This document shows positions 8,060 through 64,000 of a stretch of DNA of 64,000 bases, piece after piece (within the stretch, counting starts at the first letter, position 1; each line of letters starts with the position of its first letter). The notes below the pieces were generated by a model. It was not told where the DNA came from, made no database searches, and was given only the letters and a program-made list of their open reading frames with translations. The DNA comes from Desulfoplanes formicivorans. Its GTDB lineage: Bacteria > Desulfobacterota > Desulfovibrionia > Desulfovibrionales > Desulfomicrobiaceae. The stretch lies in NCBI RefSeq assembly GCF_001748225.1, contig NZ_BDFE01000009.1:1-64000 (forward strand), read 5' to 3'. The translations under genes were made by a program, and so were the position numbers.

Positions 8060-9550
8060 TTAAAGCAGCCAGATGGTTGCGGCCAGTCCTGTCAGAGACA
8101 TGGTGATGGTATAGGGAAATGCCAGCTTGACCATCTGCCCGTAGGAAAGCCTGATCAACGGGGCCAGGGCCGAGGTGAGCAAAAACAGAAACGCGGCCTG
8201 GCCGTTGGGGGTGGCAACACTGGGGATGTTTGTACCGGTGTTGATGGATACGGCCAGCAGATCAAACTGCTCTTTGGAAATGGCTCCGGCCAGGAAGGCC
8301 TCTTTGGTTTCCGTAATATAGACGGTGGCCACAAAGACATTGTCACTGATCATGGACAGGACCCCGTTGGCCAGATAATAGGCCGCCAGCTGGGTTTTTC
8401 CCGAAAGCTCCAGAACCGCATGGATGACCGGGGAGAACAAGTGCTGATCGTGGATCACGGCAACAATGGCAAAGAAGACCACCAGAAGTGCTGTAAAGGG
8501 CAGAGCCTCTTCAAAGGCATGCCCGATTTTGTGTTCCTCGGTGATTCCGTTGAGGGCCGTGAGCAGGACAATGACACTCAGGCCGATGATACCCACTTCT
8601 GCCAAGTGAAATGCCAAGGCTACAATGAGGAAAATGGCCACACACCCCTGGATGAACAGGGAGGCCTGGAACTTTTTGGTCATCTGGGCCTCGGTCTGCC
8701 GGGCGTTGTCTTCCAGGATGGCCCGAACATTGATCGGCAGTTTGAACCCATAGCCAAACAGGGAAAATTTTTCCAGGACAACACAGGTCAAAAGGCCCAC
8801 CAGAAGAACCGGCATGGAAACCGGGGCCACCCGAATGAAAAAGTCGGCAAAATGCCAATCCATGACATGACCGATGAGCAGGTTCTGGGGTTCGCCCACA
8901 ATGGTGGTCACCCCGCCCAGGGCTGTTCCCACAGCTCCGTGCATCATCAGGTTGCGCAGAAATCCGCGGAACTGGCGGAGATCAAGGCGGTTTTGATCAA
9001 CAATACCTTCGTCTTCGGTCAGGGCACAGGATCCACCAGTGCAATGGGTGTGATAGATTTCATAGAAGCCGTAGGCCACGGCAATGATGACTGCCGTGAC
9101 GGTCAGGGCGTCCAGAAAGGCGGAAAGAAAGGCCCCGGCAAAGCAGAAAAGCAGGGAAAGCCAGATTTTTGATTTCACCTTGATGAGAATCTTGGTGAAA
9201 GCGTATTGGAGCAGGTCTTTCATGAAATAGATGCCCGCGACCATGAACATGAGGAGCAGGATCACTGGAAAATTGTGAGCCGCTTCCTTGTAAACAGCTT
9301 CGGGCGAGGTCATGCCGAGTGCCACGGCCTCAATGGCCAGAAGTCCTCCTGCGGGCAGAGGATAGCATTTCAAGGCCATGGCCAGGGTGAAGATGAACTC
9401 TCCGATGAGAATCCATCCGGTGATAAAGGGTCCGACTGTCATCAGCAGCACCGGATTGGCGACCAGAAAGCCGATAATGGCCAATTTGTACCAGTCCGGG
9501 GAATTTCCCAGAAGATTCTTGTTCAGTGCCTGTGCGACTGTTTTTGGCAT
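8060..9550 (-). CDS. nhaB: Na+/H+ antiporter NhaB
   Basis: 496 aa with about a dozen membrane segments. Highly similar along its whole length to enterobacterial NhaB as remembered: SPDWYKLA near the N-terminus, [53 protein letters not shown], and the C-terminal [23 protein letters not shown]. It exchanges cytoplasmic Na+ for external protons. In this block it stands near an SLC13 symporter that would bring sodium in, so the two could form a sodium cycle (inference). Confidence 0.96.
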
Positions 9551-59532: not shown

Positions 59533-59608
<76 letters not shown>

Positions 59609-59617
59609 AAAAAAATC

Positions 59618-59650
59618 AAGAGGTTAGATGAAAATCTAACCTCTTTTTTT
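59618..59650 (+). terminator. Intrinsic terminator of tRNA-Lys
   Basis: AAGAGGTTAGAT (59618-59629) and ATCTAACCTCTT (59634-59645) form a perfect 12-bp stem with a GAAA loop, and T residues run to 59650. The candidate prophage end begins 27 bp later, so the tRNA unit is left intact. Confidence 0.95.
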
Positions 59651-59676: not shown

Positions 59677-59703
59677 TGTGCCAGTTGCAGAAAAACTGGA
59701 GAA
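59677..59703 (+). promoter_or_regulatory. Candidate MuA-binding site L1 at the prophage end
   Basis: TGTGCCAG then TTGCAGAAAAACTGGAGAA (59685-59703). It shares TTGCAG...AAAAC...GAGAA with the site at 59890-59909, and its 27-bp layout from the TG end parallels the L1 site of Mu. Confidence 0.35.
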
Positions 59704-59848
59704 TCCCTGCAGGCCTCTTGGAGTGATGTCTGTTGTGGGGGGTCAGTGAAGATGAGAAATATTGACATAGGGGGATGGAGGGGGCCTGATGTGGGACAAA
59801 CATAGGACTGATGCGGGCTGGTGGAGGTTGACGGCAAGATTTGGAGGC

Positions 59849-59909
59849 GCAAAGAGAAAACGAGAAAAAATTTACTTTTTGTAGAAAATTTGCAGGTAAA
59901 ACGAGAAAA
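59849..59909 (+). promoter_or_regulatory. Candidate MuA-binding sites L2 and L3
   Basis: GCAAAGAGAAAACGAGAAAA (59849-59868) and TTGCAGGTAAAACGAGAAAA (59890-59909) share the exact core AAAACGAGAAAA, 41 bp apart. In Mu, transposase sites carry CGAAA-type cores and L2 and L3 are also close together about 100-170 bp inside the end, as here. Confidence 0.45.
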
Positions 59910-59912
59910 TTG

Positions 59913-59937
59913 AAAGGGCCGATTTGGCCCTTTTTTT
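59913..59937 (+). terminator. Terminator at the left edge of the prophage
   Basis: AAAGGGCC (59913-59920) pairs with GGCCCTTT (59926-59933) around GATTT and is followed by T to 59937. On the plus strand it would block host transcription entering the prophage; on the minus strand the same stem could end the repressor message. Confidence 0.75.
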
Positions 59938-60134
59938 ATGGCGCCGTATTTTGTCATACATGCATGGCGTGATTGGGTTATGCAGCAAAACCCACCACAA
60001 CGCGTATCCTTTCTGAGCCCCGACCAAAACGCTGCGTCTGTGTATCCCATTCTATCTGGGTAAGGTTTCCGACTGTCCTGATGCTTCGTATATTGGTGTA
60101 TGCCCGGTGAAGCCTCAGGCCGTTGTGGTGGAGC
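59938..60134. other. Prophage end region without a gene
   Basis: Sequence between the end-proximal sites and the repressor stop. A 144-codon minus-strand frame over 59616-60050 crosses two terminators and the candidate transposase sites and has no domain, so it is not called. Nothing else was recognised. Confidence 0.4.
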
Positions 60135-60773
60135 CTAACCCGTGTCCTCAGTAACTTCCTGATCTCGGTCGCGCCTTATCTCGTCGCGTAGCTGCTGGTT
60201 TTCCTGGCGTAGCTTGGCAACTTCTTTTCGTATATCGTTAAACATTTTAGCGGTTTCTGTTTGCATTTCCGCTTTGAATTTCTGGAGCTCCTTTTTCATC
60301 TGGATAGCCTCGTGAAAGGCTTCGATATTACTTACTATTGCCGTTGTGAACACGGTCTTTGATTCAAGTATTTCTATTGTTTTTGATATGATCTCGGCTG
60401 TATTGAAATCCTGACCATCTTCAAGTGTTTTTGCAACTCGTTCATGTTCTGGAGCCGTATCATTATTTATAGCCCCAGAATCCCCACCTGTTCCATACGG
60501 TGCCAATTCCTCCTTACCAGACAGCAGCCAGTCGGTTGAAACATTTAGGGCTTCTGCGATTTTGGCAACAACGTCACCCTTTGGAAACGTTCCCCCTTCA
60601 TAGTTTTGAACAGAATTTGGTACAACCCCAATTTTTTTGGCCAACTCTTTTTGGGTTATACCAATGCTTTCGCGTGCCTTGCGAAGTCGAAAGGCAAATG
60701 AATTTTGGTTCGCAGTTCCTTGCGTTAAGTGCGAACCTAAGTGCGAACTTTTGTTGCTGGTTCGTTCTTTCAT
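60135..60773 (-). CDS. Phage repressor, XRE/cI-type HTH with C-terminal coiled coil
   Basis: 212 aa. HTH_3 domain about residues 27-88 (RLRKARESIGITQKELAKKI, VPNSVQNYEGG, IAEALNVSTDWLLSG), then a flexible acidic linker and a long coiled coil (about 150-205, KKELQKFKAEMQTETAKMF onward). No LexA-like peptidase domain, so induction is not by self-cleavage. By position it corresponds to the Mu c repressor. Its own N-terminal codons contain two copies of the putative operator (SHLGSHL). Confidence 0.85.
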   Translation of the reverse strand: MKERTSNKSSHLGSHLTQGTANQNSFAFRLRKARESIGITQKELAKKIGVVPNSVQNYEGGTFPKGDVVAKIAEALNVSTDWLLSGKEELAPYGTGGDSGAINNDTAPEHERVAKTLEDGQDFNTAEIISKTIEILESKTVFTTAIVSNIEAFHEAIQMKKELQKFKAEMQTETAKMFNDIRKEVAKLRQENQQLRDEIRRDRDQEVTEDTG

Positions 60774-60841
60774 TTATCTGTCCAAAATTTAAAGATTTTT
60801 ATGTTTGAAGTATATATTTTTTGGATTTTTTAAGTGCGAAC
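60707..60841. promoter_or_regulatory. Repeated putative operators AAGTGCGAAC
   Basis: AAGTGCGAAC occurs at 60727-60736, 60739-60748 (12 bp apart) and 60832-60841, with a related inverted copy GGTTCGCAGTTCC at 60707-60719. Two lie in the first codons of the repressor gene and one 11 bp before the early promoter -35. The placement fits a repressor that controls both its own gene and the early promoter. Confidence 0.6.
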
Positions 60842-60852
60842 CCAAAAACTTG

Positions 60853-60882
60853 TTGACAAAGACCAAAATTCATGGGTACTAC
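60853..60882 (+). promoter_or_regulatory. Predicted prophage early promoter
   Basis: Perfect TTGACA at 60853-60858 and TACTAC at 60877-60882, 18 bp apart, facing the early genes. An inverted repeat GCGGGGTAA/TTACCCGC (60891-60911) follows in the leader and could bind a regulator or form a hairpin. Confidence 0.55.
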
Positions 60883-60947
60883 GAACTTCAGCGGGGTAAC
60901 AGCTTACCCGCTAAACTGATAACTAACCGCATCTGGAAGTAAACTCA

Positions 60948-61397
60948 ATGTCTAGGAACCCGAAAAAATCTGTCGGACCATGCAGGCAGCTCCTGCTCCC
61001 GATTCAGACATCGGGCTCTCAGTCCATGAGGGCCGGTAGTCTGAGCCGGAAGGACGCGGTGCGCGAGGCACTGACACATGCGATGGATTCCTGCCAGTTG
61101 AGCAGAGAACAGATTGCATCTGAGATGTCTCGGCTGACAGGGGAATCGATCTCCATCAACCACATCAACAACTGGACGTCTGGGGCCAAGAGGGACTGGC
61201 GCTTCCCCATGGAGTATGTGTCCGCACTGGTGGTGATAACCGGCGATGCCGGGATTGTATCCGCCATTCTGGAAGGGACCGGCCTGGCCGTGTTGGATGA
61301 GGATGATCAGATGTATGTCGAGTATGGCAGGCTGGTGGTTGAAGAGAAGCAACGTCAGAAGAAGAAACGCGCCTTGATGCAGAAGCTGGGGGTATAA
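60948..61397 (+). CDS. Prophage early protein with an HTH-like region, function unknown
   Basis: 149 aa. Central segment SREQIASEMSRLTGESISIN then HINNWTS resembles a helix-turn-helix, suggesting a DNA-binding regulator; the rest (LAVLDEDDQMYVEYGRLVVEEKQRQKKKRA) is helical and charged. No close family is recognised. It is the first gene after the early promoter, the position where Mu has ner. Its stop overlaps the next start (TAATG at 61395-61399). Confidence 0.65.
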   Translation: MSRNPKKSVGPCRQLLLPIQTSGSQSMRAGSLSRKDAVREALTHAMDSCQLSREQIASEMSRLTGESISINHINNWTSGAKRDWRFPMEYVSALVVITGDAGIVSAILEGTGLAVLDEDDQMYVEYGRLVVEEKQRQKKKRALMQKLGV

Positions 61398-61615
61398 TGA
61401 AAAGCAGAAAAATCAAAGCCTGGCTGTTGCTCCACGGCATTACCCAGGCGCAGGTAGCATTAGAACTTGGTGTTTCCAAACCAACTGTCAGCATGTTCAT
61501 TGCTGGCAAAAAGACATCACGCAGGCTGTACTTGTACTTTGTTTTGGAGCTTGGTGTCCCCAAGTCCTACTTTGGGGACAAGTATAAGGAAGATGAAAAG
61601 GATGTGGCCGCATAA
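61397..61615 (+). CDS. Small XRE-type HTH protein, Ner-like position
   Basis: 72 aa, mostly one helix-turn-helix: ITQAQVALELGVSKPTVSMF then IAGKKTSRRLYLYFVLELGVP. Size and place between the repressor and the transposase match the Ner regulators of Mu-like phages, which turn down early transcription; this is inference. Coupled to the upstream gene by a 1-base overlap. Confidence 0.75.
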   Translation: MKSRKIKAWLLLHGITQAQVALELGVSKPTVSMFIAGKKTSRRLYLYFVLELGVPKSYFGDKYKEDEKDVAA

Positions 61616-61694
61616 ACTGGATCAAGTCGCTTCGCCCATTTTGACCCTTCCTCCGCTCATCGGGGGCAGGGAATTAAACGGATGAGGACAGGCA

Positions 61695-63848
61695 ATGAAA
61701 GAGTACACACCAAAAGAAATAGCAGACGCAATAGGCGTTACAGTCAGGGCCGTGCAGAAGCGTGCCAAGGCCGAGTCATGGACAAGCCACAAACGGAAAG
61801 CGCGAGGCGGCGGCAAGGCGTTCTACCTTGCCGATCTGCCGGAAGACATCCAGCACAAAATACTTGCCGAGTCTGCAAAAGATACGGCCTGCGTCCAGAC
61901 AGTTAAGCCCCAGGCCCCTGCCATTATCGAGATACCAACATCTGCAGCCATACCTGATTCTGCCCACCAGAGCGGGTTGGACAGGTACCGCATTGTCCAT
62001 GAATGGCGGGCCCATGTTTCCAAGTCCGCATCAACCAAGGGTGCGGCAACTGATGCTTTTTTGCTGGCGTACCATTCCGGGCAATTGCTGCCCAAAGTGC
62101 ACGCACGGCGCGGGCGGGTCTCACGGCCAACCTTGTACAAGTGGGACAAGGCCTTGCGCGACAACGGCGATGATTACCGTGTGCTATGCGACAAACGCGG
62201 GGCATGGCTCAAGGGCGGGAAAAAGGGCCCAGGGCAGATCGGTCCTGAGGCGGAAGCCGTGTTTTTGACCGCATGGCTCAACCCAAACAGGCCCGGGATC
62301 GCCCTGGCATACGAGGCAACCAGGGCTGTACTGGAAAAGCGCGGTGTTCCTGTAGCATCCTATGCAAGTTTTCGTCGGTTTGCCAAACGGTTCGATGCCC
62401 ATCACCACGACCTGGTTGTGCTTATGCGCGATGGCGAAAAGGCTCTCAAGGACAAGGTTGGGCCTTTTGCCACACGAAACGACAAACTTCTCTCTGTCGG
62501 GGACTGCATCTTTGCTGACGGTCATGACCTTAATTTCCAGGTCCTCCACCCGGTTCACGGGCGGCCCGTGCGCATGTGTCTGCTGGTCTGGTTTGATTGG
62601 CGGGCCCACTGCCCGGTTGGCTGGGAGATCATGCCTTCTGAATCGACCTTCTGCATCTCATCTGCACTGCGGATGGCGTGTCAGACTCTGGGGAAGTACC
62701 CCAAGGTGGCATATATTGATAATGGCCGTGCCTTCACCTCCAAATATTTCCTGGATCACAACGACGAAATTGACGAGCTCAACGGCCTGTATGCCAGGCT
62801 TGGAATAGCCGTGCGCAGATCAAAGCCATACGAGGCCAGGACAAAAATTGTGGAGCGGTTCTTCCGTACATTTGACGAGCAGTGCCAGCGGCTTTTGCCA
62901 TCATATTGCGGGCACAATATCGACTCCAAGCCAGCATGGAGATCCAGAAACGAAAAATTTCATCAGGCCCGCCACTCCGGGTGGATTCCCAACGTTCGCG
63001 AGGCCGCAGAAATCTTTCGCCTGTATGTTGGCTGGTACGCAAACAGACCGTGCAGATCCCTTGGTAAAGGGATCACGCCCATGCAAATTCTGGAGGCCGG
63101 TCGCGGCCCGGGCATCAGTACGGAAGAGCTGGACCAGCATTTCATGCACACCAAGGTTGTCCATCCGAAACGGTGCAGATTTACGCTGGCCGGTGTCGAT
63201 TACGAGTCCGATGTACTCTACGGGCTCAATCAAAAGATCAAGATCCGGTACCACTGGGCGGACCTGTCCACTGTCAAAATGTTCACCATGGACAACCATC
63301 CCCTGGGCGAGGCCACGCCCGTATCGGCCATCCATCCCCTGGCCAAGGAATTCGGCAACGAACTGGACATGCTCAAGGTTCAGGAGGCCAACAGACTCCA
63401 AGCTCGGCTGAAGCGCGAAACCTTCCGCCAGGCTGACGCCATGGGCCTTGGCCGGGACAGTGAGGCCATCCAGCAATTGCCGTGGGTCAAGCGGGAAAAG
63501 GTGGAGCTGCAAGTTCAGGACATTGTCCCGGAACAGCCCCAGGTGGCGCATGAGGACGAAATCGACCCGGAGCTGATCGCTGCCCAGCAGGCCATTGCAG
63601 CCGAATTGGACGCGGACAAACCCGGGTATGATCGGCCCGCTTTTTTCTCAACTGAATTGGAAAAATACGAGTACCTGTTCAAGATTTCCGAGGTTGAAGG
63701 GATCGAGCTGACCGAGGAAGACCGGGCATGGAAGGAATATTACGAGAAGAGCCGGGAATATGCCGAGGTGGCTGCACCACGGTACAACCAACTCCGGCAG
63801 ACGCTGGTCATGCTGCGTGACCAGGATGGTCACGCGGTAAACATATAA
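61695..63848 (+). CDS. Mu-type DDE transposase (MuA homologue)
   Basis: 717 aa. N-terminal Mu DNA-binding HTH (YTPKEIADAIGVTVRAVQKR), middle helical end-binding region, then a DDE catalytic core: D275 (IFADGHDLNFQ), D342 (AYIDNGRAFTSK) and E387 (KIVERFFRTFDEQ), spacing 67 and 45, close to D269/D336/E392 of MuA. A Mu_transpos_C beta-barrel follows (about 500-570) and an acidic C-terminal tail suited to contact MuB or ClpX. It cuts and joins the prophage ends during replicative transposition. Intact and therefore potentially active. Confidence 0.95.
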   Translation: MKEYTPKEIADAIGVTVRAVQKRAKAESWTSHKRKARGGGKAFYLADLPEDIQHKILAESAKDTACVQTVKPQAPAIIEIPTSAAIPDSAHQSGLDRYRIVHEWRAHVSKSASTKGAATDAFLLAYHSGQLLPKVHARRGRVSRPTLYKWDKALRDNGDDYRVLCDKRGAWLKGGKKGPGQIGPEAEAVFLTAWLNPNRPGIALAYEATRAVLEKRGVPVASYASFRRFAKRFDAHHHDLVVLMRDGEKALKDKVGPFATRNDKLLSVGDCIFADGHDLNFQVLHPVHGRPVRMCLLVWFDWRAHCPVGWEIMPSESTFCISSALRMACQTLGKYPKVAYIDNGRAFTSKYFLDHNDEIDELNGLYARLGIAVRRSKPYEARTKIVERFFRTFDEQCQRLLPSYCGHNIDSKPAWRSRNEKFHQARHSGWIPNVREAAEIFRLYVGWYANRPCRSLGKGITPMQILEAGRGPGISTEELDQHFMHTKVVHPKRCRFTLAGVDYESDVLYGLNQKIKIRYHWADLSTVKMFTMDNHPLGEATPVSAIHPLAKEFGNELDMLKVQEANRLQARLKRETFRQADAMGLGRDSEAIQQLPWVKREKVELQVQDIVPEQPQVAHEDEIDPELIAAQQAIAAELDADKPGYDRPAFFSTELEKYEYLFKISEVEGIELTEEDRAWKEYYEKSREYAEVAAPRYNQLRQTLVMLRDQDGHAVNI

Positions 63849-63858
63849 GGAGGAAGAC

Positions 63859-64000
63859 GTGAAGCCAGTATTTGTGGAGACGGAAAATGTATCCAGGTTC
63901 CGCAGAGCCATGCGGAACCTGGAAGATACGGAAAAGGGCCAGCCTGGTATTGGCGTTGTGTCCGGCCAGGCTGGCAGAGGCAAAACCTTTGCCGCTGAGA
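63859..64000 (+). CDS. MuB-like AAA+ target-selection ATPase, cut by the window end
   Basis: GTG start at 63859 directly after AAGGAGG. The visible 47 residues contain the Walker A GVVSGQAGRGKTFAAE and follow the transposase by 10 bp, the order of A and B in Mu. MuB coats target DNA with ATP and activates MuA; family assignment rests on position and P-loop only. The C-terminus lies beyond 64000. Confidence 0.8.
   Translation, partial: MKPVFVETENVSRFRRAMRNLEDTEKGQPGIGVVSGQAGRGKTFAAE

Follow-up and report, generated by a model that had tools for sequence, protein, structure and literature searches.

Transposable phages are described as inserting at random (PMC6379469, PMC8705779), and the insertions of Ab30, a transposable phage of Pseudomonas, are reported to be random on the global scale, with hot spots next to BIME (bacterial interspersed mosaic element) repeats (PMC5977238). 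A 2025 study of Desulfovibrio piger, counting its non-Mu group C as well, places 13 of 18 prophages "in or next to tRNAs." Three of its four prophage groups (A, B, and D) are Mu-like, diversity-generating retroelements (DGRs) occur in three group B prophages, and the location is attributed to ordinary tRNA integration; the available portion of the main text gives no target duplications, distance window, or link to transposition (PMC12724379). The locus analyzed here is a 64,000-bp window from Desulfoplanes formicivorans (bases 1-64000 of the 218,680-bp contig NZ_BDFE01000009.1, with the reading extended to base 118000). It contains the first 4,267 bp of a Mu-like transposable prophage that occupies contig positions 59734-89421 (29,688 bp), behind a host gene for tRNA-Lys. 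A preliminary description of the window had proposed a Mu-like prophage starting shortly after this tRNA gene, as its ends, target duplication, transposase, and Mu-type genes confirm. The phrase "just beyond tRNA-Lys," incidental there, turns out to be the main point: the relatives of this phage nearly always settle beyond a tRNA gene. We estimate a probability of about 0.87 that they form a clade, spread across one phylum, in which Mu-type transposition is directed to a zone ∼45-180 bp downstream of tRNA genes.

The extent of the prophage (59734..64000 in the window, forward strand) follows from its two ends. On the opposite strand, the core motif of the candidate transposase sites recurs 22 bp apart at 89373 and 89395, so that the sites expected at a right end are there, and the right end itself was located at 89421 with the 5-bp target duplication TCTGT on both sides of the element (left copy 59729..59733, right copy contig 89422-89426). 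The right terminus reads ...ACGTGACCCCTTACA and is followed by TCTGT; the left terminus, TGTGGGGGGTCAGTGAAGATGAGAAAT from 59734, is preceded by TCTGT, and the prophage thus runs from TGT to ACA. Among 10,105 TG/CA pairs only 18 have matching 5-bp flanks, and of these the pair 59734/89421 has a terminal identity of 22/30 compared with 13/30 for the runner-up. Two independent proofs establish these ends. The same genome holds an unoccupied paralogue of the target with one TCTGT (G000:C20:202424-202900; right side 93% identical), and the match to a metagenomic relative, L019, begins exactly at 59734; the flank of L019 there differs from that of the window and comprises the first half of a gene for tRNA-Thr. 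The transposase of L019 is 95% identical to that of the window in its best segment. The Mu-like spacing of the candidate transposase sites also fixes the ends, with R1 and R2 placed identically to those of Mu. In the congener G001 the tRNA-Lys locus is present, although the contig stops right there and hence cannot show an empty site.

These results move the left end. The preliminary description had put it at 59677, 57 bp to the left of its true position, a placement that the target duplication, the empty paralogue, and the site matrix all contradict; bases 59707..59733, thereby counted as phage, are host target DNA on the forward strand and recur in the phage-free paralogue (G000:C20:202424-202450). 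The target repeat thus leads to a different left end from the one first proposed, and the distance from the tRNA terminator is ∼84 bp rather than 27 bp. The tRNA-Lys unit was rightly called unharmed. The gene for tRNA-Lys(CTT) (59533..59608, forward strand; ARAGORN, Rfam RF00005) has its 3' end turned toward the prophage and 125 bp away from the insertion point, and a terminator-like hairpin with a T run can be read from the sequence at 59619..59650 on the same strand. A TG at 59842, suitably spaced ahead of L2, was considered as another left end and rejected: its flank is AGATT rather than TCTGT, and it ranks third by terminal identity, without a duplication.

Both ends carry several transposase-site candidates in a Mu layout. 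On the forward strand of the left end these are L1 at 59743..59766, predicted by the site matrix and Mu-like spacing, and L2 and L3 at 59851..59874 and 59892..59915, predicted by the core motif and the matrix. With position defined as the first core base counted from the respective end, the predicted sites fall at L1 16, L2 124, L3 165, R1 16, and R2 38, which for R1, R2, L2, and L3 is the same or nearly the same as in Mu. The identical AAAACGAGAAAA cores of L2 and L3, noted before as lying 41 bp apart, are present at 59857 and 59898. Alone they would be weak evidence, because ∼1% of Markov-1 sequences contain a 12-mer that is repeated within 300 bp; what makes them decisive is that the core recurs twice at the right end in the opposite orientation. 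The L1-L2-L3 arrangement first proposed stands together with L2 and L3, whereas the exact position given for L1 does not: 59685-59703 is host DNA and scores 2.3 bits, compared with 24-31 bits for the five sites. We applied the weight matrix, built solely from the five sites of this phage, to the ends of phage Mu (NC_000929). At the Mu right end it ranks positions 16 and 38, which are Mu R1 and R2, first and second; at the Mu left end the top match is at 161, and position 121 comes fifth. Aligned ungapped, the right end of the prophage and that of Mu share 36 of 55 bases, an identity reached in 0 of 20,000 shuffles.

Three prophages suggested the idea of tRNA targeting, which was then put to the test on additional relatives. 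Among the relatives that could be delimited, the three closest, all from another genus, have sharp left ends by homology breakpoint, and for two of them the right end was found with a 5-bp duplication; these two lie 122 and 141 bp past the 3' end of a tRNA gene, beside the 125 bp of the window prophage. The further relatives were windows with related transposases from across the phylum. A plain search of relatives for TG/CA termini with duplications but without the sites was too noisy and was replaced by homology breakpoints, by site-based scoring of end structure, with which the relatives were first delimited, and finally by a blind script. Because the first passes displayed the tRNA list beside the end pairs, this final script was made blind to tRNAs to guard against biased choice. 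It considered end features alone, namely an exact 5-bp duplication, the similarity of R1 to R2 and of L1 to R1, and a match of the L2/L3 type. A pair was taken as convincing at a score of at least 38, which gave 26 windows, nearly always with a sole pair, plus one weak pair; for another ∼17 windows that hold related transposases, often on short contigs, no end pair emerged, and these are uninformative. Among pairs discarded along the way, that of G322 (1606/28482, score 43) is a tandem-repeat artefact that fails the blind script, and that of G453b (score 32) is probably spurious.

By the blind script, 22 of the 26 prophages lie 44-178 bp downstream of a tRNA gene, and 19 of 23 do so when the three that raised the idea are left out. 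The ends, the duplications, the association with tRNA genes, and its distance window are computational results; the median distance is ∼120 bp, and the window prophage lies in the middle of the distribution. All 22 are on the downstream side, with the 3' end of the tRNA facing the prophage. The tRNAs used include Lys, Thr, Ala, Glu, Pro, Arg, Val, Tyr, Asn, Met, and Phe, and since nearly all duplications differ and so many tRNA types are hit, the insertions are separate events. With 44-93 tRNA genes in genomes of 2.8-4.7 Mb, the chance of landing within 200 bp downstream of a tRNA gene is 0.28-0.53% per insertion, and the observed count has P ∼1e-45. In the 22-prophage set the right end is nearer to the tRNA 16 times and the left end 3 times (p=0.004), and in the 27-prophage set the figures are 18 and 5 (p=0.01); the window prophage belongs to the minority with the left end nearer. 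A further prophage is inserted 88 bp away from a 3' fragment of tRNA-Met that is 49 bases long. The phylum-level relatives G359a and G597, which pass the blind script, show the same tRNA pattern, as does G453a, delimited by the earlier scoring only. G453a and G096c, both near tRNAs and accepted earlier by eye, do not pass the blind script and do not count toward the 22 of 26.

The termini of the relatives vary. Many with confirmed 5-bp duplications (G284, G285, G270, G263, G096b, G117a, G117b, and others) have 5'-TA at the left terminus and 5'-TG at the right, and in G022 and G197 both termini are TA; TA-TA ends have been reported for Leptospira prophages (PMC8705779).

Several observations weigh against directed insertion downstream of tRNA genes. 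Three well delimited prophages (G101, G113, and G176) are near no tRNA or tRNA fragment. L019 sits inside its tRNA-Thr gene and not downstream of it, on a metagenomic contig whose flank is only 59 bp. Only standing prophages are sampled, so that selection after insertion contributes to some degree. Finally, the winged-helix protein, whose gene comes right behind that of the AAA+ ATPase B, has a homologue that likewise follows B in Ab30 (E=7e-20), a phage not known to target tRNAs. Beside the exceptions we searched for other RNA genes: Rfam gave no match except hammerhead ribozymes inside the phages, and relaxed ARAGORN gave overlapping noise. Of the sites of G113 and G176, one is near the 3' end of an isocitrate dehydrogenase-like gene, judged by eye, and the other is apparently in a protein-coding region.

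As to mechanism, we infer that the transposition machinery of the phage would select the zone behind a tRNA gene before transposase A joins the ends, with lysogeny without harm to host genes as the outcome. The zone may be chosen by ATPase B, perhaps together with the winged-helix protein, or B may instead capture some feature that the host presents at tRNA genes. The B-type ATPase of Tn7-like elements gets its target information from a partner protein, which makes the pair of B and the winged-helix protein a natural candidate for targeting. On this model the two would recognize tRNA genes as DNA and the downstream stretch as a safe zone, a phage counterpart of the homing of Tn7 by TnsD but without TniQ, and we hold it tentatively, at somewhat less than even odds. 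No TniQ was found in PHROGs and Pfam scans of the main prophage genes, although no dedicated TniQ profile search was made. The Ab30 homologue, which plain tblastn of phage records had missed, weakens the winged-helix gene as a unique determinant; its presence is not sufficient, because Ab30 has it and yet inserts broadly at random. A conserved gene operonised with MuB is mentioned in a survey of TnsC homologues (PMC10293859).

Tethering of B to a host feature of tRNA units, such as terminating RNA polymerase, supercoiling, a nucleoid-protein boundary, or the pre-tRNA trailer, is about as likely as such protein-guided targeting. It would fit the variable distance of 44-178 bp, which is not fixed as in Tn7, the many different tRNAs used, and the occurrence of a homologue of the winged-helix candidate in Ab30, which is not known to target tRNAs. 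It also fits the behavior of Mu in Escherichia coli, which avoids the mature tRNA sequence and inserts more in the leader and trailer regions of pre-tRNAs (PMC7350765), so that tRNA targeting may exaggerate a tendency already present there. Less easily accommodated are the exclusively downstream placement with the tRNA 3' end always facing, the bias in which end lies nearer, and the insertion beside the tRNA-Met fragment, although in that case an integrative element may have arrived later.

That insertion is random, as in Mu, and that only lysogens with harmless sites survive to be sequenced is improbable. Only standing prophages are seen, the tRNA-Lys unit here is unharmed, and the authors of the D. 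piger study call tRNAs stable integration sites (PMC12724379). Against this, tolerable intergenic sites far outnumber the 200-bp tRNA zones, which make up ∼0.3-0.5% of the genome and yet hold 22 of the 26 prophages. The same filter acts on E. coli Mu prophages, and these are found in and between protein genes: six annotated left flanks, the only side covered, representing at least five distinct sites, include no tRNA, and many copies abut or interrupt various protein genes.

It is very improbable that the window prophage is an ordinary randomly inserted Mu-like element beside a tRNA gene by coincidence. Its place in the left-end-nearest minority would agree with that, as would its target at the edge of a duplicated module (described below) that happens to adjoin the tRNA, but its 125 bp is the middle of the distribution of its relatives. 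We give negligible weight to a conventional tRNA-integrating prophage with a tyrosine integrase and Mu-like passenger genes. In its favor, tRNA genes are classic attachment sites and the prophage adjoins one. Against it stand the target duplication of 5 bp, the ends of Mu type, and the intact DDE transposase; moreover, 125 bp separate the insertion from the tRNA, no att repeat is present, and the prophage genes scanned include no integrase.

The early genes of the prophage begin with a CI/XRE-type repressor with a coiled-coil C terminus on the reverse strand (60135..60773; Pfam HTH_3, PHROGs repressors). Three operator-like repeats, TAAGTGCGAAC, lie on the same strand at 60726..60841 (starts 60726, 60738, and 60831). 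On the forward strand follow an early regulator (phrog_2345, 60948..61397), found with PHROGs and present in 20 of 22 relatives; a 72-residue helix-turn-helix (HTH) protein (61397..61615; PHROGs); and transposase A, a 717-residue protein of the Mu family (61695..63848; Pfam Mu domains, phrog_310 E=3.5e-106). The catalytic triad of A, intact as first described, comprises D275, D342, and E387, which align with D269, D336, and E392 of MuA; no solved structure matched the transposase by phmmer. B, an AAA+ target-capture ATPase, adjoins A on the same strand (63859..64000, continuing to contig 64554; phrog_296 E=7e-47) and matches MuB by profile (E=5e-22). The winged-helix gene (contig 64551-65165) begins inside the last codons of B. 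A, B, and both prophage ends appear intact, and the transposase gene has one copy in the genome. To the right come genes for HNH, Gam, MazG, GemA, a Mor-type activator, endolysin, and terminase, then Mu-type portal, head, connector, tail tube, and tape-measure genes and an Mtd-like tail protein. Common to all 22 prophages compared are A, B, the 72-residue HTH protein, GemA, and the winged-helix protein.

Compared with L019 (window 60135-60860; L019:380-1290), the HTH domain of the repressor is 39% identical and the C-terminal part 92% identical, and the operator-like repeats differ along with the HTH domain, being TAAGTGCGAAC here and TAACTGCGAAC in L019; this looks like a swap of immunity specificity. 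At contig 87764-89323 (L007:9764-11323) lies a relic DGR, in which an Mtd-like variable tail protein is directly followed by a reverse-transcriptase fragment that keeps YMDD and misses positions 1-118 of the 205 in RVT_1. The relic has retained no template repeat, and the genome yielded no further RVT_1 match; homologues with complete DGRs exist. The prophage also contains type II hammerhead ribozymes at contig 66934-67021 (L006:8934-9021), as do two relatives (L185:4408-4473 and 9247-9313; L150:10230-10296). The prophage itself lies close to the edge of a duplicated module (contig 89422-94313 and G000:C20:202446-205361), whose outer blocks are 93-95% identical while the middle differs. The module has repeated palindrome-like boundaries and integron-integrase-like fragments and may represent a cassette array in decay; scanning it for a simple attC motif gave no convincing result.

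If the clade reliably settles behind tRNA genes, MuA/MuB machinery can become site-selective, apparently without TniQ or CRISPR parts. Targeting of this kind would tie Mu to the question, posed for Tn7 and IS21, of how target information reaches an AAA+ ATPase, would parallel that of tRNA genes by retroelements in amoebae and yeast, and would make Mu-type target choice directly testable; it may also account for the clustering of Desulfovibrio prophages at tRNAs. Within the available parts of the literature searched, to which this claim is limited, a tie between Mu-type transposition and a tRNA distance window is new.

The element is of a known kind, a Mu-like transposable phage, and is filed as a variant because it differs from Mu in target behavior. 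With bacteriophage Mu (Muvirus) it shares TG/CA ends, a 5-bp duplication, R1 and R2 at 16 and 38, and L2 and L3 ∼40 bp apart, as well as a DDE transposase with Mu I-gamma and C-terminal domains, B, Gam, GemA, a Mor-like activator, and the Mu portal family. It differs in its CI/XRE-type repressor, its 231-residue B, the winged-helix gene directly after B, the few distal genes after the tape-measure gene, and insertion directed downstream of tRNA genes, and its right end holds a dead DGR where Mu has the G-segment invertase, com, and mom. The Ab30/D3112-type transposable phages of Pseudomonas (Casadabanvirus) share the order of repressor, regulators, A, B, winged-helix gene, and GemA, a CI-like repressor, and homologous B and winged-helix proteins. 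The broad, near-random insertion typical of Mu and Ab30, a behavior more than a defining trait of such phages, is not what the clade displays, 22 of its 26 delimited members lying within 178 bp downstream of tRNAs. The Dictyostelium retroelements TRE3 and Skipper-2 insert ∼100 bp downstream of many tRNA genes (PMC5006619); they are eukaryotic and offer an analogy only, without homology. The tRNA-homing Tn7-like elements, CRISPR-associated transposons (CASTs) I-B2 and I-D, share with the window phage a DDE transposase, an AAA+ ATPase, and insertion downstream of tRNA (PMC10293859). They use TniQ/TnsD selectors, and CyCAST inserts narrowly, 30-33 nucleotides downstream of the tRNA (PMC10293859), whereas the distance is variable here; A and B of the window phage are a related TnsB/TnsC-type pair.

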